IMG/VR virus record: IMGVR_UViG_3300007960_000201
Location: 1-23,160 of that record
DNA: 23,160 bases
Origin: a virus
Strand: one strand, 5' to 3'
The position numbers were made by a program, and so were the translations under genes. Under the pieces are notes generated by a model that did not search any database, was not told the DNA's origin, and was given only the letters and a program-made list of their open reading frames with translations. Position 1 is the first letter of the stretch, and each line of letters opens with the position of its first letter. Below, one piece after another: positions 8,909 through 21,584 of this stretch.

Positions 8909-9222
8909 TACCTGCCCGACTGCAACACGCGGAACACCGGAGTCCCGCCCGACGCTGCCGTGACATTGAGGCGCACCGCGTAGACGGGCGATCCAACGGC
9001 AGTCGAAAACGTCCCGGCCGATCCGTTGATGGTCATCAGCGTGATTGCGGCGGCGCTTGCAACCGAAAGCGGATTATCGAGAGTGTATTCCACCTTGGCT
9101 TCGAGATCCTTCGGCGCGGTCACGGAGATCCGAGTCAGCGCGTCCGGCTCGTAGACATTGAGCGGAATCCAGCTATGGGTGGAGGCCGAAGCCTCCACCG
9201 TCTTCGTGACCGATACCGGCAT
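8908..9222 (-). CDS. Unknown small beta-rich virion protein
   Basis: A 104-residue protein rich in Val, Thr, Ser and Ala with alternating strands (VEASASTHSWIPLNVYEP, RISVTAPKDLEAKVEYTLD), which looks like a compact beta sandwich. It is joined to its neighbours by TAATG junctions and lies in the set of small genes following the capsid. Such proteins are often head-completion or decoration components; no specific family is recognised. Confidence 0.58.
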   Translation of the reverse strand: MPVSVTKTVEASASTHSWIPLNVYEPDALTRISVTAPKDLEAKVEYTLDNPLSVASAAAITLMTINGSAGTFSTAVGSPVYAVRLNVTAASGGTPVFRVLQSGR

Positions 9223-9668
9223 TACGACCTCTGGATGTAGTAGACGCGCGCCAGGCCGTCGAACTTGGACAGTTCAATGCCAGCGGTCGCGGCTGTGGTT
9301 GCATCGATCCAAACCCGCATGGCCGAAGACACGGCATCCACGAACGACCGCGCGGAGACCGCGTAATCGTTGATGTGGTAGAGGCCGGCAGCCGATGCGC
9401 CGATGGAGCCAAAATAGTCCACGTCGTCGGCATTGCCGAACCGGAAGGTGATTTCCGGGCCTTCGCCACCAGACGCTGACGCGGCGGTTTCCACGACCAA
9501 CTCGATGTGGGTCGGGGCCGCGTTCTTCGGAATAACGATGGAAGACGCGCCGGACGTGTTCGACGCCACGGTGGCTTCCTGACATGCGATCAAGGTTCCA
9601 ATGGTGTTGGCAGCCTGACCGTTGTCCTGCCCGGTGCGAACCGGACCGGAGAAAGTCGTTTTACCCAT
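9222..9668 (-). CDS. Unknown virion-type protein following the capsid gene
   Basis: A 148-residue protein beginning MGKTTFSGPVRTGQDNG; a TTFSGPV-type opening is common in small structural proteins encoded just after phage capsid genes. The rest is Ala/Thr/Ser-rich with beta-like segments (SSIVIPKNAAPTHIELVVET, EITFRFGNADDVDYFG). The frame extends to a TTG at 9683, but ATG 9668 is preferred because an AAAGGA ribosome binding site lies about 6 bases before it. It is the first gene after the strong hairpin, so its level may differ from that of the capsid. Function unknown; probably a decoration or head-tail component. Confidence 0.62.
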   Translation of the reverse strand: MGKTTFSGPVRTGQDNGQAANTIGTLIACQEATVASNTSGASSIVIPKNAAPTHIELVVETAASASGGEGPEITFRFGNADDVDYFGSIGASAAGLYHINDYAVSARSFVDAVSSAMRVWIDATTAATAGIELSKFDGLARVYYIQRS

Positions 9669-9690
9669 TTCCTGTCCTTTCAAGAAAGGT

Positions 9691-9719: not shown

Positions 9720-10616
9720 CTACGCACCAGGCGAGCCGAAGATGCCACGCGGGTCCGTCACGCCCTGCGACCAACGCGCCGTCACCTTGAACTGCAGGTT
9801 CTCGGTGGCGAACTCGTTGTCGCGGGCCAGATCGGCCGCGCGGCGCTCGTAGCAGACGAGGCCGTTCGGGCAGTCCGTGCCGATGAACCACGCGTCCGAA
9901 TCCGTGAGATACGGAGAGACGATGGCATCGCCCTGGATCATGCCGCGAACCACGTTCACGTCATTGTCCGCGCTGCCCACCTTCTGGGTGGTTTCGAGGA
10001 TTTTCGCCGCAACAAACTGAAGCGCGGTCGGCACGATCAGCTTGCGCGGGAAGACGCGAATCTTGAGATTCTGGTCATCCACGAAGTCCGAGATGTCGAT
10101 GCACGCCTGCTCCAGCGAAGTCTCGGTCAGGTCAGCCGAGGTCTGAAGCTGGTTGCGGAAAGTCCCGCCGCCCACCAGGGAGTGGGTCGCGTTGAAGACC
10201 GAAGAGCCGTCCGCAGCGGTTTCCGAAGAAAAACCGTTGTTCAGGACGTTAAAGTGCGTGGTCTCCATCGTCTCCCGCATTGAGCGGGCCAGCATACGCG
10301 GGATCTGGTTGATGAAGTTGTACTGATCGTCTTCGTACATCTCGCGGGTGACAACGCCCCCCGCGCCATACGTGACGTTCACATACTCCTTCTGGAACCC
10401 CTGGAGCAGATCGAAGAAGCTGACAGCAGCCCCCTGATCCTTGAGGCCGGCAAGGGGATACCCCGTGACGCCCTGCTCTTTTTCATAAGCCTTGTCCGAG
10501 GTCTTCTTTTCGAAGATCTTTTCGTAGAGCGGCTCATAGGAGCTATACTCGTGGCCGAAGATCTCCTTGATCCCAGGCCACAAAAGTTCGGCGAAATTGC
10601 CGGTAGAAGTCGTCAT
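9720..10616 (-). CDS. Major capsid protein
   Basis: A 298-residue protein forming the icosahedral shell. It resembles Mu gpT / HK97-fold-type capsid proteins: an N-terminal helix region (AELLWPGIKEIFGHEYSSYE), central AYEKEQGVTGYPLAGL and VTREMYEDDQYN segments, then ATHSLVGGGTFRNQL, LKIRVFPRKLIVPTALQFVA and a C-terminal TARWSQGVTDPRGIFGSPGA. Position after scaffold and decoration genes agrees. The strongest ribosome binding site in this block (GGGAGG, 6 bases before ATG 10616) and the stable hairpin after the stop fit the need for very high expression. Confidence 0.88.
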   Translation of the reverse strand: MTTSTGNFAELLWPGIKEIFGHEYSSYEPLYEKIFEKKTSDKAYEKEQGVTGYPLAGLKDQGAAVSFFDLLQGFQKEYVNVTYGAGGVVTREMYEDDQYNFINQIPRMLARSMRETMETTHFNVLNNGFSSETAADGSSVFNATHSLVGGGTFRNQLQTSADLTETSLEQACIDISDFVDDQNLKIRVFPRKLIVPTALQFVAAKILETTQKVGSADNDVNVVRGMIQGDAIVSPYLTDSDAWFIGTDCPNGLVCYERRAADLARDNEFATENLQFKVTARWSQGVTDPRGIFGSPGA

Positions 10617-13604: not shown

Positions 13605-14072
13605 CTAGACCTCCATCATGTATTGCTTGCCGGTGGACTTGAACCCGGCGCGGCGGAACAGCACTTCGGCCCGGTCGATGCCGGTGCCGGTGCCAACGAC
13701 GATGCGCGAGGCGTTTGCACGCCCCCAGCGCAGAAATTCATTGAACAGTTTCCGCCCCCATCCGGTCCTGTGTTCCGGGAGAACGTAGAGCAGATCAAGG
13801 TTCGCGGAACGCTCGTCCGTGTAGAGCATCACCACGGAAATATATCCCTGGACCCAGCCGACGATCTTTCCCTCAACGACCGCGACAAAAGCGCAAAACT
13901 GATCGGGATTCTCGATGATCGTCCGAAAGACTTCCCACGCCCGGTCCCGGTCTATCGGCGGGTAATAGATAAAACTCTCCTGGCGATACCTCTCCCCAAG
14001 AGCCAGAACAGCATCGCAATCATGAATCCTCGCGGGGCGAACAGTAGTCTTCGACCCAAGACAGAACATCAT
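13605..14072 (-). CDS. GNAT-family acetyltransferase
   Basis: A 155-residue protein with the GNAT fold: acetyl-CoA binding motif A at about 93-110 (DLLYVLPEHRTGWGRKLFNE, with R-T-G-W-G as the Q/R-x-x-G-x-G/A loop) and the RRAGFKSTG element near the C-terminus (140-148). It would transfer an acetyl group from acetyl-CoA to an unknown amine. The ATGA overlap with the portal stop sets the start at ATG 14072; a second ATG follows directly at 14069. Similar genes are known beside structural genes in podoviruses; the target (a virion protein, host protein or sugar) cannot be read from sequence. The glycan cassette is one gene upstream. Confidence 0.82.
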   Translation of the reverse strand: MMFCLGSKTTVRPARIHDCDAVLALGERYRQESFIYYPPIDRDRAWEVFRTIIENPDQFCAFVAVVEGKIVGWVQGYISVVMLYTDERSANLDLLYVLPEHRTGWGRKLFNEFLRWGRANASRIVVGTGTGIDRAEVLFRRAGFKSTGKQYMMEV

Positions 14073-16126
14073 TGCGCCCCTGCAATCTCACTAACTTCTC
14101 CCAAGAGGTCGCCAATATCGCCTGCTCCCGCGCCGGAAATGTTTCTAACAAGCGCCTCAAGAACTGCTGGGTCTCCCGGTCCCTGAGCCATTTGTCCTTC
14201 ATTCAGGATCTCCGCTTCGTTCACGCCGTATAGATAGGCGATGTGCTGCTGGATGTGATTTTCCAGAGCCTTCACCTGCTCCGGCTTCATGGTCTCACGG
14301 TATCCGGCCAGGGGATCGGCCGCGCCGTTCGGATTGTCTTCAGCCAAGAGCAATTCCTGGTGGGCCTGAATGTGCGCCTCGTGATCCTGCTCCGGATAAA
14401 CCGGAGTGATCTGAGGTTCGGGCATCAGCGCCATCATGTTTTCCTTCTCGGGATCGTCTTCCCTCGGAGGTTCGGGCGCCTTCGGATTGATCTGCTCGAT
14501 GTTCTGGGCGTCGATGGCTTCCAGCAAACGCTGATAGGCGTTGTGGATATATTCTGGCGATTGCTGAACCATCGGGTTCTGCATCACGTAATTGAATTCG
14601 GTCTCTGCCTGCGCAAAACGCTGGCGTTTAGTTGTCATCTTCGGATCGGCCGCAGGCATCACCATCAGGTCCGCCGCGTAGTCCTCTGGGGAAATGCTCT
14701 GCATATCCACCGTTCCGTCGGCGTGGTTGACCGCGAAATATTCCTCCTGGTTGAGGTGCCGCCCGTTCAGGTCGTAGAGCATCTGCAATTCAATGCTCCA
14801 GGAGTGAAGCACCCGCTCGTAAACCGTCGAGAACACCTCAAGGGATTGATCGATTAGCGCCATCAAGGCTTGCGGTTGTATGACCTTGTCGGTCTGTCCG
14901 GTCAGGGCTTCCGTGACCGTCGCGAGCCGGTCGGACCGGCTCATAAGCATCTGCACGACCTGCCCCAACGCGGGGTTTGGACCCGGAAACGTAAACTGGA
15001 AAATCTGCTTGCGAATATCGTCCGCAGTCGCGTCGATTTGCTTGAACTTGCCCAACTCAAACTCATGCTCGCCGCCGCGAACGCCGGTCGCATTGCCGAT
15101 GAAGCCGGACATGTTGCCGACATTCGCCAGGGTGCCGGCGTCCACGATCTGCCGCAGCAGCTTGTTAACTGCGGTATTGATCGGGCCGATCAAATGCCCC
15201 TGCCCCAGACAGTAGACCCCGTCCGGGTTTTCGATGTAGCCGTAATGGGTGAAGAACTCCAAAGGCCGCTTGTTATCGACCGGCTCGCCGTCTTCATCGT
15301 GCAGGAACCGCGGCGCGATCTTCAGCAGCTTTTCGGACGTGCAATCCACCGTCACGATATAGGGCTCGGCAATGCCGTCTTCGTCCAGATCGAGAATCGT
15401 GTGTTGCTCGATGATCTTCGCGAAGCCCATCTCTCCCGACGGGGGTGTTTGACCGCTTGCCTTTTCGTCGGCGTCTCTCACCGGGTCGCTGTCGTCCGCC
15501 CGATACGGAAGTGCGTGGGTGATGTAGCTTCCCGCGTCGGCGAGGATCTTCGTCTCGTTCACCGACTGATAGATGATGTGCGTCTTGCGCTCGATAGACT
15601 CCATCTCTCTGGGGCCGATGCCGTAGGGCAAGACCAGGTCTTCGGCGCGGACATTCTCGACCACGTTTCTCTGCAGGAGGTCGTGGAAGTAGATCTTCCG
15701 GAAGAACGACCCGTGCAATGGAAGGGCCAACAGCATCCGGTCCACGTTGCGCTTGTAGGCGCGGTCCTGAACCATCAACTGCCAGGACATATGATTCCCG
15801 ACGCGGCGGGCGCGGTCCATCAACTCCTCCCGCGATCCGCTGACTGTGGGAATCGCCCGGATGATGTTCCGGTTCGGGAACATCGCCTTGTAGGCGCGGG
15901 CGTGGAATTGAACGCAAGCCTCCGTGAGGAGCGGGAGAGATTCTTGAGAAGAGCCCTGCCACGGCCCTTTTTCCGCCTCGTCCTGCTGGTAAAATTGCTT
16001 CTTCCACTTGGCGTGCATGTCGAGCCATTCCTGGCGCGACTCGTTGTCTTCCTTGAACGCTTCGAGGGCTTCGCCCGCGATCTTCTTTTGTTGTTCTTCG
16101 GAGAGGTTCAGATCGGGACTAAGCAT
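14069..16126 (-). CDS. Portal protein (head-tail connector)
   Basis: A 685-residue protein forming the 12-subunit ring at one capsid vertex through which DNA is packaged. Supporting segments include QFYQQDEAEKGPWQGSSQES followed by LPLLTEACVQFHARAYKAMF, RNIIRAIP, a GYIENPDGVYCLGQGHLIGP element and ALTGQTDKVIQPQALMALID, all seen in podovirus portal proteins. The C-terminal third is Glu/Gln/Pro-rich and helical (barrel-like), ending in an Ala/Gly-rich stretch. The size suits a long P22-like portal. ATG 16126 lies 8 bases inside the previous gene, showing coupling to the glycan cassette. Confidence 0.85.
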   Translation of the reverse strand: MLSPDLNLSEEQQKKIAGEALEAFKEDNESRQEWLDMHAKWKKQFYQQDEAEKGPWQGSSQESLPLLTEACVQFHARAYKAMFPNRNIIRAIPTVSGSREELMDRARRVGNHMSWQLMVQDRAYKRNVDRMLLALPLHGSFFRKIYFHDLLQRNVVENVRAEDLVLPYGIGPREMESIERKTHIIYQSVNETKILADAGSYITHALPYRADDSDPVRDADEKASGQTPPSGEMGFAKIIEQHTILDLDEDGIAEPYIVTVDCTSEKLLKIAPRFLHDEDGEPVDNKRPLEFFTHYGYIENPDGVYCLGQGHLIGPINTAVNKLLRQIVDAGTLANVGNMSGFIGNATGVRGGEHEFELGKFKQIDATADDIRKQIFQFTFPGPNPALGQVVQMLMSRSDRLATVTEALTGQTDKVIQPQALMALIDQSLEVFSTVYERVLHSWSIELQMLYDLNGRHLNQEEYFAVNHADGTVDMQSISPEDYAADLMVMPAADPKMTTKRQRFAQAETEFNYVMQNPMVQQSPEYIHNAYQRLLEAIDAQNIEQINPKAPEPPREDDPEKENMMALMPEPQITPVYPEQDHEAHIQAHQELLLAEDNPNGAADPLAGYRETMKPEQVKALENHIQQHIAYLYGVNEAEILNEGQMAQGPGDPAVLEALVRNISGAGAGDIGDLLGEVSEIAGAQ

Positions 16127-17411
16127 AGCGGTCCAGCGTCAGAGTGTTTTTCGGCGGCTGGAGAGCCGACAGAATGCCCTCGCCATGAATGCAGAAGTCG
16201 TTTTCCGTCTTGAACAGGTGCTTGAACTCTTGCGCCTGAGCCATTTTCTCCAGATCGGTCAAATACTCCCCCTGCGGATCTTGATGGATTTCCCGGTCCC
16301 GAATGGAAACCCGGATTTTTTCTGCGTTCAGGGCGTTGCCCTCCGAGCCGTCCCGGTAGCACAGGTCAAACCCGTGTAGATGGAACTCCCGGAAGCCCAG
16401 CGCGTGAGCGAGCGAAATCGCCCGCGTTGCTGCCGAACAGCCGCCGGCGATCAATAGCTTGCCGGGCGAGAGAATTTTCTCCTCCCCGGCCCCGACAATG
16501 GCGTGATATCGCCAAACCTTATGGCCGTCCAAAGCATCGAAGGTGGTCGGATCGCACATCGACGCGACGAAGTACCGAACGTCCTTGTGAGGGCTTGCAA
16601 CAAAGTCCGCGACATGGGCCCTAGGATCGAGCAGAACACAGCCCCACGGGATCACGCCCGCCTCAATGAGTTTGTCGTGGGACGACTTGACGCAGAAAAT
16701 ATGGGAGTGTCCCCGGATCGCTTCCGGGTCGAGGGACGGACCGCCGGCCGCGATCACCGCTGGCTCGTAGTGCCGTCCCACCACCTCTACATCCGGCAAA
16801 TCCCGTTCAAGGTTTCGCCTTATGTTCGCCTGAATCGTTTCATTCGAAGACACGTTGCGCGTTTTGACTTGCAACCGGATCGGCGGGGCGTAGGGTTTGC
16901 GAACCGCCATTCTGACAAAACCCCCGTCTTTTACCGGGTCTTTCTTCGGCAGAACCATGAAGTCATCGTCTACCAGGAACCCGGCCCCGCCCGGCCGGCC
17001 CTCGTACACGTCATCCAAAACAAGAATTTTCGACCCTTTCACGGCGTTGTAATCGCCCAGAATGGTCTTTTCCGAATGCCCGCCGTCCACAAAGGCCAAA
17101 TCGGCTTCGATCTTCTGGCCGTGCAGGGTCTCGCGGGTGTTGCCCTTGATTAACCGAACGTCAACGTCAGGACAGGCTTCGGCGATCTTCTGGCCCACCT
17201 CGTCCTGGCTAAAGTGGGCCTTGACGTTGGATTCCTCCGCGTCGGTCTCGTCCGTCGCGTCTTCAAACAAATCATAACCGACATACGACTTCGCGCCGGT
17301 CGCCTGGATCATCTGAATTGCGCGGTCGCCGTTCCACGTCCCCACCTCGACAATGGAGTCGATCTCGTCGCGGTAAATGTGGCAGATTGCGATTAGTTGG
17401 TCGTATCTCAT
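16119..17411 (-). CDS. Fusion of a SAM methyltransferase with a DUF115/MAF-like domain
   Basis: A 430-residue two-domain protein. Residues 1-175 look like a class I SAM-dependent methyltransferase: IVEVGTWNGD (20-29) is the SAM glycine motif, VGYDLFED (44-51) the acidic strand-2 end, DLAFVDGGH (104-112) and KILVLDDVYEG later motifs. From about residue 215, PAVIAAGGPSLDPEAI, then VLLDPRAH, GGCSAATRAISLAHALGFRE and FHLHGFDLCYRDG match the DUF115 (motility accessory factor / sugar-metabolism Rossmann) pattern, a group linked to flagellin and surface glycosylation. ATG 17411 gives an ATGA overlap with the previous stop. It probably modifies or transfers a sugar; the exact substrate is unknown. 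Confidence 0.72.
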   Translation of the reverse strand: MRYDQLIAICHIYRDEIDSIVEVGTWNGDRAIQMIQATGAKSYVGYDLFEDATDETDAEESNVKAHFSQDEVGQKIAEACPDVDVRLIKGNTRETLHGQKIEADLAFVDGGHSEKTILGDYNAVKGSKILVLDDVYEGRPGGAGFLVDDDFMVLPKKDPVKDGGFVRMAVRKPYAPPIRLQVKTRNVSSNETIQANIRRNLERDLPDVEVVGRHYEPAVIAAGGPSLDPEAIRGHSHIFCVKSSHDKLIEAGVIPWGCVLLDPRAHVADFVASPHKDVRYFVASMCDPTTFDALDGHKVWRYHAIVGAGEEKILSPGKLLIAGGCSAATRAISLAHALGFREFHLHGFDLCYRDGSEGNALNAEKIRVSIRDREIHQDPQGEYLTDLEKMAQAQEFKHLFKTENDFCIHGEGILSALQPPKNTLTLDRYA

Positions 17412-18109
17412 CGCGCGTACTCCCACCATTCCGGCTCATACGGAAGCCCTGGGAGCATGTCAGGCGTGCCTCTGGTGTAGTGAACGACCTTCGGCATCAA
17501 GGTTTCCGGCGAATGCCCTTCTAGCCAGTTGTAATCCTCGGGAATGTCCCCGATTTCGTCCTCGTGAACCCACAACATTGCATGAAGATGGGCGCCGGGA
17601 TCGTTGTTCACCCTGTATAGGGTCAGGCCGTGGCACTTCGCCGGATTGAAGACCATCAACGAGGACCAATTCTTCCGCCGGTAGCGGGTTTGCACGACAT
17701 TCGTGTTGAATTTGTGCGAATCGGTCGGTTCATGGTGGTGTTTGACGCACCAAACCGCTTTATCGCCCTCACAGGCGCGGATCACGTCGGCGATGTCGCA
17801 TCGCCACAGCACATCCGGGTCCACGAACACCGCTCGTCCGGGCTGATAGTCCTCCAGCGCCGGAACGAGGAAGCGCGTGAACGAAAATGTGGTCGAAAAG
17901 GGCTTGCCGTCCCGCATATCGATCATTTGACCGTCTGGCGTGACCAAATGTTCGCGCCAAAACAGCTTTTTTGACCGCAATTCCCAATGCCTGAGCGGAA
18001 TTACGTTGATCGGAATGCTTGCTTGGGCCTCCAGGGACTTGATGCAGACATCCATCGCTTGAATGTCTTTTTCATCGAACCCAACGTACACATTCAGTGG
18101 TTCTGTCAC
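17408..18109 (-). CDS. DxD-type glycosyltransferase (GT8-like)
   Basis: A 233-residue GT-A fold enzyme that moves a sugar from a nucleotide sugar to an acceptor. It begins LNVYVGFDEKD (nucleotide-binding strand 1), has TTFSFTRFLVPAL before FVDPDVLWR, where DPD (97-99) is the metal-binding DxD, then TRYRRKNWSSLMVFNPA (141-157) and a C-terminal VVHYTRGTP whose His fits the second metal ligand of GT8-like enzymes. The frame is open further upstream to 18226, but this would overlap the methyltransferase gene heavily; GTG 18109, just after that stop, is preferred. Its ribosome binding site is weak, so coupling is likely. Acceptor unknown. Confidence 0.75.
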   Translation of the reverse strand: MTEPLNVYVGFDEKDIQAMDVCIKSLEAQASIPINVIPLRHWELRSKKLFWREHLVTPDGQMIDMRDGKPFSTTFSFTRFLVPALEDYQPGRAVFVDPDVLWRCDIADVIRACEGDKAVWCVKHHHEPTDSHKFNTNVVQTRYRRKNWSSLMVFNPAKCHGLTLYRVNNDPGAHLHAMLWVHEDEIGDIPEDYNWLEGHSPETLMPKVVHYTRGTPDMLPGLPYEPEWWEYAR

Positions 18110-18111
18110 TT

Positions 18112-18720
18112 CTAGTCTTCCCACATCCAGAGTTGATCCGGACCCCATTTCTTGATCCGGGTTGCCCCCAGATCCTCTAGGAAGGCCGGCAATTCGCTGC
18201 CGTCCAACCCGTAGCGGGTCGAGCATTTGTGCTCATGCTCGAAAAACAGGGTCGGTTTGGACCGTTTCAGGGTTTCCACTGCCCCTTTGAGGGCGAAGGT
18301 CTCGTATCCCTGCAGGTCCAGCTTGATGAAGTTCGGATTCAGCCCCAGACTGTCGATTGTGATCGACTGCTGGGATTTTTCGCCCTTGCCAACGCAGTAG
18401 ATCGGGCTTTCCGGGTATTCGTCGCCGTGATATTTCACCTCGGCAAAGCCGTCCGAGAGGGCCTTGCAGATCACGCTCGCATCCGGGCAGTTTTTCTTGA
18501 TGCACTCGGCATTGAGCGGGTCCATCTCGACCGCGAACACATGCTCGAAATTCTTCAGAAGATCCTTCGTCCAGCCGCCGATGTAAGCCCCGCAATCAAG
18601 GGCGCATCCAAATTTGGACAGATATGGCTTGACCAGTCCATATCTGGACCCTGGGCCGTTTCTACGAGTGACGTGGTTGTCTACCGGATACCACCAGCCG
18701 TCGATTTCAACAGGTTCCAC
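18112..18720 (-). CDS. FkbM-family SAM methyltransferase
   Basis: A 202-residue O-methyltransferase of FkbM type, often found in LPS, capsule and exopolysaccharide clusters where it methylates sugars. Motifs: ALDCGAYIGGWTKDLL (40-55, SAM loop), FAVEMDPLN (62-70, acidic ribose contact), FIKLDLQGYETFALKG (131-146; FkbM enzymes usually have KIDVEGxE here) and TLFFEHEH. Start GTG 18720 has GAGGAG about 9 bases upstream and lies 40 bases inside the previous gene. The product probably caps or decorates the glycan built by neighbouring transferases. Confidence 0.8.
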   Translation of the reverse strand: MEPVEIDGWWYPVDNHVTRRNGPGSRYGLVKPYLSKFGCALDCGAYIGGWTKDLLKNFEHVFAVEMDPLNAECIKKNCPDASVICKALSDGFAEVKYHGDEYPESPIYCVGKGEKSQQSITIDSLGLNPNFIKLDLQGYETFALKGAVETLKRSKPTLFFEHEHKCSTRYGLDGSELPAFLEDLGATRIKKWGPDQLWMWED

Positions 18721-19421
18721 GCTTCACCGCTCCTCATCTCGTCAAGGGTGAATTGATTGTAGGCAACCCAATGCGCCCAAGGGTCTCGCTCAGGCCACTT
18801 TGGGCTTTCGATGTCGGGGAAATCCCAGCTTACGCTTTCGGCGATATGCTCCCCGGTAACGATACAAGGCACCCCCTCTCTCAAGGCGTGAGTCGCGGAT
18901 TGGGAATCGAACGTCACCACGCACCAGGCATTCTCAAGAGCCTGTTGCATGTTGCCCTTCGGCCCCGTCTTGACCGCGATCTTGCGATCCGTCGAACGGC
19001 GAATGTCGTTGATGGTGCAGGACACCCAATCTTCCCCGCGGAAGCCGTACCAAACCGCCCTGCCCGGTGAAGGGGGGACGATCAGAACGTGTGACCCCAA
19101 CTTGCGCCAGGGCTCCATGACTGTTCCGAGTTTCTCGAATCTGTCGGGTGGGCATTCAAAGGGTTCGGTCGCCTGGAACCCGTTCAGCGTGACCCGGTAA
19201 TATCCGTCAAAGTGGCCCGGCCGGAAGTAGCCGTTGTCGATATGCCACCAGTCCCGGTTCAGGGCTTCGCAGAGGCGGATAATCTCTCCACACCCCCTCA
19301 AAACCCCGTAGACGATGGGGTCTCTTGCATCCAGCCCTTCTCTTACGTGCTTTCTGTCGCCCCATGCCTCGCATACCCTCTGCGAGATGTCGTGGTCAGT
19401 GTACAGCGCGACAGGCTTCAA
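18681..19421 (-). CDS. Surface-glycan glycosyltransferase-like protein (capsule type), tentative
   Basis: A 246-residue protein. The late segment CVVTFDSQSATHALREGVPC (about 178-197) followed by IVTGEHIA resembles the nucleotide-sugar binding end of GT-B capsule transferases (N/D-S-x-x-x-x-x-A-L-x-x-G-x-P). Earlier it has GEIIRLCEAL, YYRVTLNGFQ and VLIVPPSPG. The start is probably TTG 19421, inside the end of the GT9 gene (26-base overlap), because GAGGA precedes it by about 7 bases; no better start was found nearby. The neighbours are all glycan enzymes, which supports a sugar role. I do not recognise the family with certainty; the N-terminal half is unfamiliar. Confidence 0.58.
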   Translation of the reverse strand: MKPVALYTDHDISQRVCEAWGDRKHVREGLDARDPIVYGVLRGCGEIIRLCEALNRDWWHIDNGYFRPGHFDGYYRVTLNGFQATEPFECPPDRFEKLGTVMEPWRKLGSHVLIVPPSPGRAVWYGFRGEDWVSCTINDIRRSTDRKIAVKTGPKGNMQQALENAWCVVTFDSQSATHALREGVPCIVTGEHIAESVSWDFPDIESPKWPERDPWAHWVAYNQFTLDEMRSGEAWNLLKSTAGGIR

Positions 19422-20100
19422 TGACTTCCTCTACGCTGATTGCATCCATCGCCCGCCTGCAATGCTCGCAGTCGAACATATGGCCGCACCCCGCGTCATA
19501 TGAATGCAGGTTGATATGTATGTCGTATCCGGTTGTTCTCGGATGAGTCAGGCCGCCAAAGATCACCACCCCCGGAATTCCGAGAGCCGCGGCCGCATGG
19601 TGTAAGCCTCCTTCCGGTCCAAGATACATCTTGGCCCCGGCAAGGTAGGGCAAGGCGTCCATGAAGGATTTGGTGCGAACGAACTCCACACGCTCCAGAA
19701 CTTTCCCCTCGGCGCCGACCTGCAGGAACTCCGCGTCCATCCGGTCCACCACCGCCTGATACTTCTCAAAACCCCAGTCCTTGTTATCCTTGAAGAAGTC
19801 TTTTTTGCAGTTCGGCTCAATCAATATTTTCCCGTGCGAGACCGGCCCGACCTGGATATGACCGGGAACAGCCTTGTAGTGGGGATTGAAGATTACCTTC
19901 GTGTGCCCACCGACCTTCACCGCCCCCAAATGGTAGGGCCGCTTCCCAGGCTTGTTTTCCAGCGGGAATCCCCGCCCCATCGTGATGTCTTTGTTGCCGT
20001 CAAATATGGGCGACCAGTAACAAACCTTCGCCGGCACCCCCAGGGCCTTTTTGACCGCGCGGGCTTCGGCGGTCAGCATGATGTCGTCACCCCAGCCCAT
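19396..20100 (-). CDS. GT9-family glycosyltransferase (heptosyltransferase-like)
   Basis: A 234-residue protein related to ADP-heptose:LPS heptosyltransferases. GWGDDIMLTAEARAVKKALG at the start matches the GD acceptor loop carrying the catalytic Asp; YLGPEGGLHHAAAALGIPGV then VIFGGLTHP (about 167-196) is the signature donor-binding region of GT9. A C-terminal cluster CGHMFDCEHC is like the Cys-containing tail of this family. It is shorter than full-length heptosyltransferases (about 320-350). A GTG at 20112 would overlap the terminase stop as GTGA, but ATG 20100 with GAGGGG 4 bases upstream is better supported. It is the first gene of the cassette and could add a sugar to host LPS core or to another acceptor. 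Confidence 0.8.
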   Translation of the reverse strand: MGWGDDIMLTAEARAVKKALGVPAKVCYWSPIFDGNKDITMGRGFPLENKPGKRPYHLGAVKVGGHTKVIFNPHYKAVPGHIQVGPVSHGKILIEPNCKKDFFKDNKDWGFEKYQAVVDRMDAEFLQVGAEGKVLERVEFVRTKSFMDALPYLAGAKMYLGPEGGLHHAAAALGIPGVVIFGGLTHPRTTGYDIHINLHSYDAGCGHMFDCEHCRRAMDAISVEEVIEACRAVH

Positions 20101-20108
20101 GCCGCCCC

Positions 20109-21584
20109 TCACACAGTAGCGTAGGGATCGACTGACTTCCGGGCATATCGCTTATACTCCGTTTCCCATTTCTCGTGTTCTCTGTCCCGCTGCGTTGTCA
20201 CGAACGGGCGGGACCGGAGCGCATATCCCACTTCATCATACACATGGTCTTCCTGTTTTGAGTTCGGGCCCTTGTCCGGGTCGAACTCATCGAGGACCAA
20301 CATCGGAACGGTGCGCCAGAAGTGTTCACAATTCGCCGTGACGTAGAACATCGGGAGGCTTTCTTCGCCGGACTCCCCATAGTCTTCCGATCCCGACAAC
20401 CTCGCCAGAATCTCGGCATACATCGCCTTCCGGTCCTTCTTCGATTGCCGCATCCGGAATCGCCCGTCCGTGGCAGTGGACATATTCTCCTGAGGAGAGG
20501 GCCCGTCGTGTTGAGCCCACATTCCCGTGTCCCCAACCCGGTAATCGATGACCTCGCCGTCCTCTCTTTCGAGGATCTTCTGAGCCACGACCGCCGCCGG
20601 CATTCTCTTGCCTTTATCAGCTTTGCCGTCCCAGCCGTACCACTCCCGGTATCGGATGACCGCCCCGGCAGGAATATCGACGCCGTCCCAGCCGTTTTTG
20701 GCCGCTAGGTGCGTGTCCTGATCGGCGACACAATACCAGCCCACCGAAAAAGGTTTGGCAGTGCCCCAATCGATACACATGAACCGCGTCCACCACTTCG
20801 GCGGGTCGAACGGCCTCAACTGGTGTTTCTCTCTCGATAGATTATGCAGAGCCGCACCGACAACCGCGTCCCAGTCGCCCTCCGTCAAAGCCCGCGCAAG
20901 CTCAGGAGGCAGCGCAGAAAACTGCCCGGCGTAATTCGAACTCAGATATTTGTTGTCCCGCATCTTCGCCGGGATGAAGACCGACAACCATCCCTGATCA
21001 TCCGGGTTCTTCGGATCGGCCATCGTCTTGTCCCGGAACAACACCTCCGGCACCGACCCATCGATAAAGGTCTTCTTTAAAAACGTATGCCCCGGACCGC
21101 CAGGGTTGGACGCAAAGACAATCCTCGGCAGCAACTTCGTCTTCGGCGCCCAACTCCCCAACCTCACGCGACCGCGAAGATAGGTCAACTGGTACTCGGT
21201 CAAATGCGAGGCTTCATCCACCCCCAGCCAGTGCATCTCCGCACCCTGGTACCGGTGAACGTCCTGCTCTTTCTCACAGTAACAGAAATTGATCCCAGCC
21301 CCGTTGTAGAACACGAACCGTTGTTCGTTCGTCTTGTACTCCCCCAACACAGAGGGAATCTCGTTCCGGATCTTCCGAATGTGGTTGTCCTGCAATTCCC
21401 CAAGAGTGCGCCGGAACAGGTAAGCATCGCACCCCGGATTCTCCAGGCAGAACGCTATCGCATCCCACCTCAAAGCGTGGGACTTCCCCCCGCCAGCCGC
21501 ACCCCCATAGAATATCTGGTTCGCCACCGTCCCATGAAGCAACGCCTGACGGGACTGGGGAGCGTAGTCTAGGTCGATTTGCAC
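20109..21584 (-). CDS. terL: Large terminase subunit (TerL)
   Basis: A 491-residue packaging motor and nuclease. The ATPase part has Walker A GGAAGGGKSH (27-36), Walker B LGVDEAS (120-126, D123 E124) and coupling motif FASNPGGPGH (157-166). The RNase H-like nuclease part starts at FMCIDWG (D272), with GDTGMW (D352) and DEVGYALRSR (D450) as the likely other metal ligands. The start is GTG 21584: upstream in this frame there is a TAG and no other start codon. There is no good ribosome binding site, and it is the first gene after a roughly 450-base non-coding stretch, so a promoter or a special initiation there is likely. Length and motifs are complete, so it should be functional. Confidence 0.95.
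   Translation of the reverse strand: MQIDLDYAPQSRQALLHGTVANQIFYGGAAGGGKSHALRWDAIAFCLENPGCDAYLFRRTLGELQDNHIRKIRNEIPSVLGEYKTNEQRFVFYNGAGINFCYCEKEQDVHRYQGAEMHWLGVDEASHLTEYQLTYLRGRVRLGSWAPKTKLLPRIVFASNPGGPGHTFLKKTFIDGSVPEVLFRDKTMADPKNPDDQGWLSVFIPAKMRDNKYLSSNYAGQFSALPPELARALTEGDWDAVVGAALHNLSREKHQLRPFDPPKWWTRFMCIDWGTAKPFSVGWYCVADQDTHLAAKNGWDGVDIPAGAVIRYREWYGWDGKADKGKRMPAAVVAQKILEREDGEVIDYRVGDTGMWAQHDGPSPQENMSTATDGRFRMRQSKKDRKAMYAEILARLSGSEDYGESGEESLPMFYVTANCEHFWRTVPMLVLDEFDPDKGPNSKQEDHVYDEVGYALRSRPFVTTQRDREHEKWETEYKRYARKSVDPYATV

Follow-up and report, generated by a model that had tools for sequence, protein, structure and literature searches.

Maf enzymes O-glycosylate Ser/Thr residues of flagellin, and that of C. 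botulinum accepts CMP-Kdo (PMC11339370). They consist of a degenerate Rossmann domain weakly similar to methyltransferases, a PF01973 domain, and a C-terminal helical domain that bears a weak resemblance to flagellin chaperones (PMC11339370), and they work in the cytoplasm, ahead of export and assembly (PMC4065374). The retaining β-Kdo transferases of families GT99, GT107, and GT140 possess a QXXXD nucleophile motif and an HP CMP-binding motif (PMC12887879, PMC10148158). Among phages, it is established that mycobacteriophages glycosylate their virions with glycosyltransferases that they themselves encode (Freeman 2023, as cited by PMC11256854 and PMC12363180), and the virion is the proposed glycosylation target for Che8 gp110 and Corndog gp38 (PMC12363180, PMC11256854). 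The GT8 genes of pelagimyophages have been read by their authors as agents of host-surface modification (PMC7029224). Our literature search found no paper joining DUF115, phage, and glycosyltransferase.

Here, we describe a five-gene cassette located between the terminase large subunit gene (terL) and the portal gene of a 23,160-base viral fragment (hereafter, the window; IMG/VR record IMGVR_UViG_3300007960_000201, with no larger genome behind it). The best reading of this cassette, to which we assign a probability of roughly 0.55, is that a virion protein is O-glycosylated in the cytoplasm, late in infection, from sugar nucleotides of the host. To our knowledge, virion glycosylation has been shown in few phages only. 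If the reading is true, it would suggest that dedicated protein glycosylation recurs as a core function throughout one lineage of environmental phages, and it would offer another way to read marine-phage GT8 genes, which are usually taken as host O-chain modifiers.

Organization of the cassette

As described in an earlier note on this DNA, the five genes lie head to tail between terL and portal. They occupy the minus strand (16119–20112) and overlap or abut terL, portal, and one another (Table 1). The coupling to the packaging genes claimed there is supported by overlaps of 4 nt between terL and the GT9 gene and 8 nt between the fusion gene and portal. The start of the GT8 gene, listed as an open reading frame from ATG 18226, was re-assigned to GTG 18109, which immediately follows the FkbM stop codon; this is most likely the true start, because homology in relatives begins there. 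None of the five proteins contains a membrane segment by hydropathy, and all are predicted to be soluble. No GtrA flippase was detected by Pfam among the five genes, and no tRNA is present within the 23,160-nt window.

Table 1. Features of the window in and around the cassette
Feature	Position	Strand	Length (aa)	Evidence or remark
terL, terminase large subunit (upstream flank)	20109–21584	−		PF03237, E 2e-7; phrog_979, E 9e-34
GT9, heptosyltransferase-type GT-B glycosyltransferase	19396–20112	−	238	PF01075, E 5e-6, 26.4 bits (cut-off 22)
Caps, small GT-B glycosyltransferase, KpsC/WbbB-like fold	18681–19421	−	246	TTG start; AlphaFold pLDDT 91
FkbM-family methyltransferase	18112–18720	−	202	PF05050, E 1.7e-9, 38.5 bits (cut-off 22.7)
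GT8-like GT-A glycosyltransferase	17408–18109	−		Invariant DxD (alignment); phrog_28018, E 5e-49
MT24 + PF01973 (DUF115/MptE-like) fusion, Maf-like	16119–17429	−	436	PF13578 (Methyltransf_24), E 1e-8, and PF01973, E 1.1e-20, both above cut-off; AlphaFold pLDDT 86
Portal/head-to-tail connecting protein (downstream flank)	14069–16126	−		25–35% identity to known portals/connectors
GNAT acetyltransferase	13605–14072			Directly after portal
Ser/Thr-rich protein	9222–9683		153	Right after major capsid gene (9720–10616); no family match

Family assignments and predicted structures

The GT9, FkbM, and methyltransferase/DUF115 identities proposed in the earlier note are borne out by Pfam scores above the cut-offs. 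For the GT8-like protein, the proposed DxD motif (Asp96 and Asp98) is invariant in 19 homologues, and the PHROG that it matches is of unknown function; PF01501 scored below the cut-off both in the window (E 0.05) and in a relative (E 9e-4). PDB profile matches to GT8 5gvv and WbbM 6u4b were obtained at E values of about 0.015. A comparison of the cassette with defence systems gave only a weak FkbM/methyltransferase match.

Caps has no Pfam match above the cut-off (DUF6716 is weak), and a PDB sequence profile search gave no useful match. The closest structural matches of its AlphaFold model are KpsC (Z 11.9) and WbbB (Z 11.0), over about 215 residues, whereas unrelated GT-B proteins reach Z values of 9 and below. 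Caps shares the reduced GT-B fold with KpsC (GT107) and WbbB (GT99), but it is shorter (these span about 320–390 aa), and neither the QXXXD nor the HP motif is conserved in its 21 homologues. The residues invariant among these homologues are Gly39, Asp62, Arg76, Ser173, Glu228, and Gly232. Since both motifs are missing, Kdo as the donor is a guess, and Caps should best be named a KpsC-fold glycosyltransferase, without donor assignment. The earlier label, capsule-type transferase-like, is nevertheless apt, because the fold is that of the capsule β-Kdo transferases, though no sequence family is confidently matched.

The AlphaFold model of the fusion protein has a pTM of 0.64, and the orientation of its domains is uncertain. 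Its best match is the flagellin O-glycosyltransferase Maf (5mu5; Z 21.8 over 328 residues, covering residues 1–425 of the model); the rmsd of 16.1 is high and fits two domains held in another orientation. The first half of the model matches many SAM methyltransferases; the MT24 domain spans residues 27–130, and the methyltransferase motifs (E-x-GTWNG and IDGGHS) are intact. Taken by itself, the DUF115 half resembles M. jannaschii HPPK (8sd5; Z 15.3, 188 residues, rmsd 3.2). PF01973 is the Maf_flag10 domain, but it also covers this archaeal pterin kinase. It stands alone in the archaeal HPPK/MptE proteins, which act on hydroxymethylpterin, whereas the phage protein is a two-domain fusion encoded among glycosyltransferase genes. 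The two structures predicted here thus display folds whose absence would have spoken against the earlier note: a glycosyltransferase fold in Caps and a methyltransferase plus Maf fold in the fusion.

The fusion and the Maf enzymes (Magnetospirillum 5mu5, Aeromonas Maf1, and C. botulinum CbMaf), which transfer a nonulosonic acid to flagellin, share a Rossmann/methyltransferase-like N-terminal domain followed by PF01973, and cytoplasmic action on self-assembling protein subunits is their proposed common logic. In contrast to Maf, the phage protein is phage-borne, adjoins portal, and retains the methyltransferase motifs in its N-terminal domain. It ends approximately 20 residues past the last modelled strand of the PF01973 domain, and its model contains no C-terminal helical domain. 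Furthermore, relatives swap the N-terminal partner for a DxD-bearing domain or encode MT24 separately. As modelled, the Maf-type domain order is better suited to a protein acceptor than to LPS. This acceptor could be a host protein, such as flagellin, pilin, or another surface protein, whose glycosylation would alter motility or receptor exposure. Maf naturally acts on flagellin, and the enzyme layout is the same; however, the flagellin-chaperone-like helical domain is absent, flagellin newly made so late in infection would scarcely arrive at the cell surface, and the cassette is located beside portal. We therefore consider a host protein acceptor very unlikely.

With two different members as tblastn queries, the MT24–DUF115 fusion found no match in 50,697 GenBank phage records. 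In the relatives L034 (4122–6089) and L079 (4646–6943), DUF115 is preceded, in the same protein, by a domain bearing a W-x-D-[AG]-D (DxD-type) motif; in such fusions, MT24 lies in between in one phage group and is absent in another. This DxD-bearing partner has no PDB profile or PHROGs match. Relative L021 carries a nucleotide-sugar epimerase gene and a separate MT24 gene in the terL/portal slot.

Conservation of the cassette in the phage lineage

Within IMG/VR, it is the closer relatives that carry the cassette. Over all loci, 29 contain both terL and portal, and 28 of these, in 17 distinct contig groups that we defined by identical spacing and order, contain a 3.6–6.8 kb cassette between the two genes; many loci were retrieved with a GT8 or Caps query, so that the locus count is not a frequency. 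The gene order is shuffled among relatives. It is GT9-Caps-FkbM-GT8-DUF115 in the window, Caps-MT23-GT8-GT9-DUF115 in L005, Caps-FkbM-MT23-radical SAM-GT8-DUF115 in L112, MT23-GT8-Caps-DUF115 in L111, and Caps-MT23-GT8-FkbM-DUF115 in many others. The DUF115 gene is always the last before portal where both are seen in terL-to-portal order; the arrangement differs in L109 (portal...Caps-GT8-DUF115-terL).

Seven terL-retrieved loci, two of them from nearly the same phage as the window, extend far enough, or nearly so, to be judged, and all but L018 carry cassette genes after terL. In L018, an outgroup with 46% terL identity, a portal gene of another family directly follows terL without a cassette. 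Among the portal-retrieved loci, every one with more than 35% identity has the DUF115 gene ahead of portal. In two distant portal relatives (28%), four large unrelated genes lie between terL and portal (L022, 2742–9751), and the junction therefore takes other cargo too. The more distant isolates and other phages to whose portals or connectors the window protein is related (HTVC023P, QDWS535, GB2A, CRP-902, ct2os315, and DSL-LC04) all lack the cassette at this junction. The two genes are adjacent in QDWS535, CRP-902, and ct2os315, and are separated by a tRNA in GB2A, by one gene of about 200 aa in HTVC023P, and by one PcfJ-like gene in DSL-LC04. In these phages, as in L018, terL and portal are thus adjacent or nearly so. 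No DNA-level match to the window was found among GenBank phages.

Compared with L003, the closest relative of the window, the cassette genes show dN/dS values of 0.06–0.12 (0.04 for terL) and are under strong purifying selection. For GT8, Caps, and DUF115, the distances between pairs of relatives are correlated with the corresponding terL and portal distances (Spearman 0.61–0.78, Mantel p 0.001); the correlation is lower for FkbM (0.37–0.60). For the most part, the cassette has therefore been inherited together with the packaging genes. That 17 distinct contigs carry such cassettes at one and the same junction, combined with the strong purifying selection, is more than chance. Judged from these sequence comparisons, the cassette is a core trait of the phage lineage and not a recent or decaying insertion. 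The proposed synteny search thus recovered the cassette families at the same site, and the block, which had been regarded as inserted, is conserved and selected in its relatives.

In L003, a 189-aa HNH homing-endonuclease-like gene (PF13392; 3971–4537) is inserted between FkbM and GT8 and separates the GT8 frame from its upstream portion. Some relatives contain a radical SAM/SPASM protein gene inside the cassette (L112/L119, 14043–14987; L103, 5024–5980), and a Gallionella MAG (L134) holds a copy with 61% identity next to genes for MT24 and GT8. The protein adjoining terL in L016 (8627–9988) weakly matches the ADP-ribosyltransferase of polyvalent proteins (E 7e-5, below the cut-off).

In the cellular genome set, the sole full match is a 50,118-base contig in a Myxococcales MAG (L125). 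Its FkbM and radical SAM proteins are 100% identical to those of phage record G003 (L112), which also comprises 50,118 bases. L125 is probably a phage contig binned with the MAG and says little about the host. The remaining cellular matches cover mainly the methyltransferase half of the fusion.

Related enzyme sets in other phages

The only GenBank phage relatives of GT9 occur in giant Caulobacter phages, which also hold relatives of Caps and GT8. In CcrColossus, DUF115 (gp126), Caps (gp128), GT8 (gp129), and GT9 (gp131) are encoded between tail-fibre and lysis genes (endolysin, holin, and spanin), and the corresponding cassette of CcrBL9 (gp174–179) includes FkbM (gp178). The DUF115, Caps, GT8, and GT9 families are thus common to these phages and the window, with FkbM shared by CcrBL9, whereas the sites differ: tail-fibre and lysis genes flank the Caulobacter sets, and terL and portal flank that of the window. 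As cultivable carriers, the Caulobacter phages are testable candidates. In ctDrO704, the FkbM and GT8 genes are flanked by the major capsid gene and a "phage stabilization" gene. In the pelagimyophage Mosig EXVC030M, homologues of GT8 and Caps lie beside nucleotide-metabolism genes, not virion genes.

A second phage group, which we take to resemble HMO-2011-type phages, has GT8 and a longer DUF115 protein encoded immediately ahead of terS, and also encodes a DNA polymerase, a ribonucleotide reductase, a 2OG oxygenase, and Hsp20. Phage glycosyltransferases can act on DNA, as in T4, and the 2OG-Fe(II) oxygenase near GT8 in this group would fit glycosylation of phage DNA bases as a protection against restriction. 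However, 20 related records (many of 43–50 kb, all possibly fragments) contain no gene of the thymidylate synthase/dCMP hydroxymethylase family, and several glycosyltransferases combined with methyltransferases and a Maf-like enzyme exceed the needs of base glucosylation. Base glycosylation is the least probable of the explanations considered.

Pelagimyophages are rich in GT8 genes, partly beside tail-fibre genes, but their glycosyltransferases lie largely in a hypervariable region (PMC7029224), in contrast to the compact core cassette in the terL/portal operon of the window. Phage-encoded glycosyltransferases are likewise common to the mycobacteriophages and the window, which differs in combining predicted glycosyltransferases of several families, predicted methyltransferases, and a Maf-like enzyme, fixed at the terL/portal junction. 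In cyanophage S-SCSM2R (L114, 9995–13520), a GT8 homologue is accompanied by two unannotated proteins, KdsB, and KdsA; this gene cluster suggests phage-made CMP-Kdo.

Predicted function of the cassette

Judging by the overlaps of the cassette with terL and portal, its enzymes are probably synthesized during virion assembly. In the preferred reading, virion protein glycosylation, the Maf-like protein would attach the first sugar to Ser/Thr residues of a virion protein. The donor would probably be a CMP-activated ulosonic acid, such as CMP-Kdo, which Gram-negative hosts already make. Drawing on other sugar nucleotides of the host, Caps, GT9, and GT8 would extend the glycan; O-methylation would fall to the FkbM and MT24 domains, resulting in a virion that bears a short methylated glycan. 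The host LPS precursors CMP-Kdo, ADP-heptose, and UDP-hexoses would suit the cassette families, and sugar-nucleotide genes would therefore not be needed. We hold at slightly below even odds the fuller picture, in which Maf-like protein O-glycosylation with a methylated oligosaccharide is encoded within the packaging operon, decorates an assembling virion protein as it is made, and forms a core trait of a metagenome-only lineage.

The gene arrangement favours a virion acceptor: the Maf-like gene comes last, beside portal; the cassette is coupled to terL and portal; and the same set recurs in late regions of unrelated phages, near genes for tail, capsid, or packaging. Whenever the terL-to-portal order is seen with both genes, DUF115 is the immediate neighbour of portal. 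Relatives fuse a DxD-bearing domain to DUF115, the cassette proteins contain no membrane segments, and no GtrA occurs in 15 relatives, whose records may be fragments. The virion glycosylation of mycobacteriophages is a precedent. On the other side stand the match of the DUF115 half to HPPK, the missing Maf C-terminal helical domain, the lack of the QXXXD and HP motifs in Caps, and the same glycosyltransferase set beside nucleotide-metabolism genes in Mosig. In addition, GT9 and GT8 are families that typically build the LPS core, a task likewise performed by soluble or peripheral enzymes.

These latter families raise late host-surface remodelling as the main alternative, in which sugars would be added and methylated on the host LPS core, O-chain, or capsule, so that adsorption of competing phages is blocked or released progeny are kept off debris. 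The action of GT9 and GT8 families in LPS core synthesis, the fold that Caps shares with the capsule/O-antigen Kdo transferases KpsC and WbbB, the KdsA and KdsB genes adjoining a GT8 homologue in S-SCSM2R, and the published interpretation of the pelagimyophage GT8 genes (PMC7029224) all fit such remodelling. We nonetheless regard it as less likely than virion glycosylation, given that the cassette proteins have no membrane segment and the 15 relatives no GtrA, that operon coupling with terL and portal leaves little time to change the surface, and that the DUF115 gene keeps its place next to portal however the cassette is rearranged. Moreover, we know of no role for a Maf-type enzyme in LPS synthesis. 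A gtrABC-type seroconversion cluster was rejected, as GtrA is lacking in both the cassette and these relatives and the cassette proteins have no membrane segments. The earlier note had proposed either virion decoration or a change of the host surface; both roles gained support here, and sequence does not settle the choice between them. Overall, its interpretation is partly supported.

Two further genes of the window may be mentioned with regard to virion protein glycosylation. The GNAT acetyltransferase, a relative of which also follows portal in L005, could likewise modify a virion protein or a sugar. The Ser/Thr-rich protein (18% Ser/Thr), which occupies the position of the annotated cement protein in DSL-LC04, is a possible glycan acceptor.
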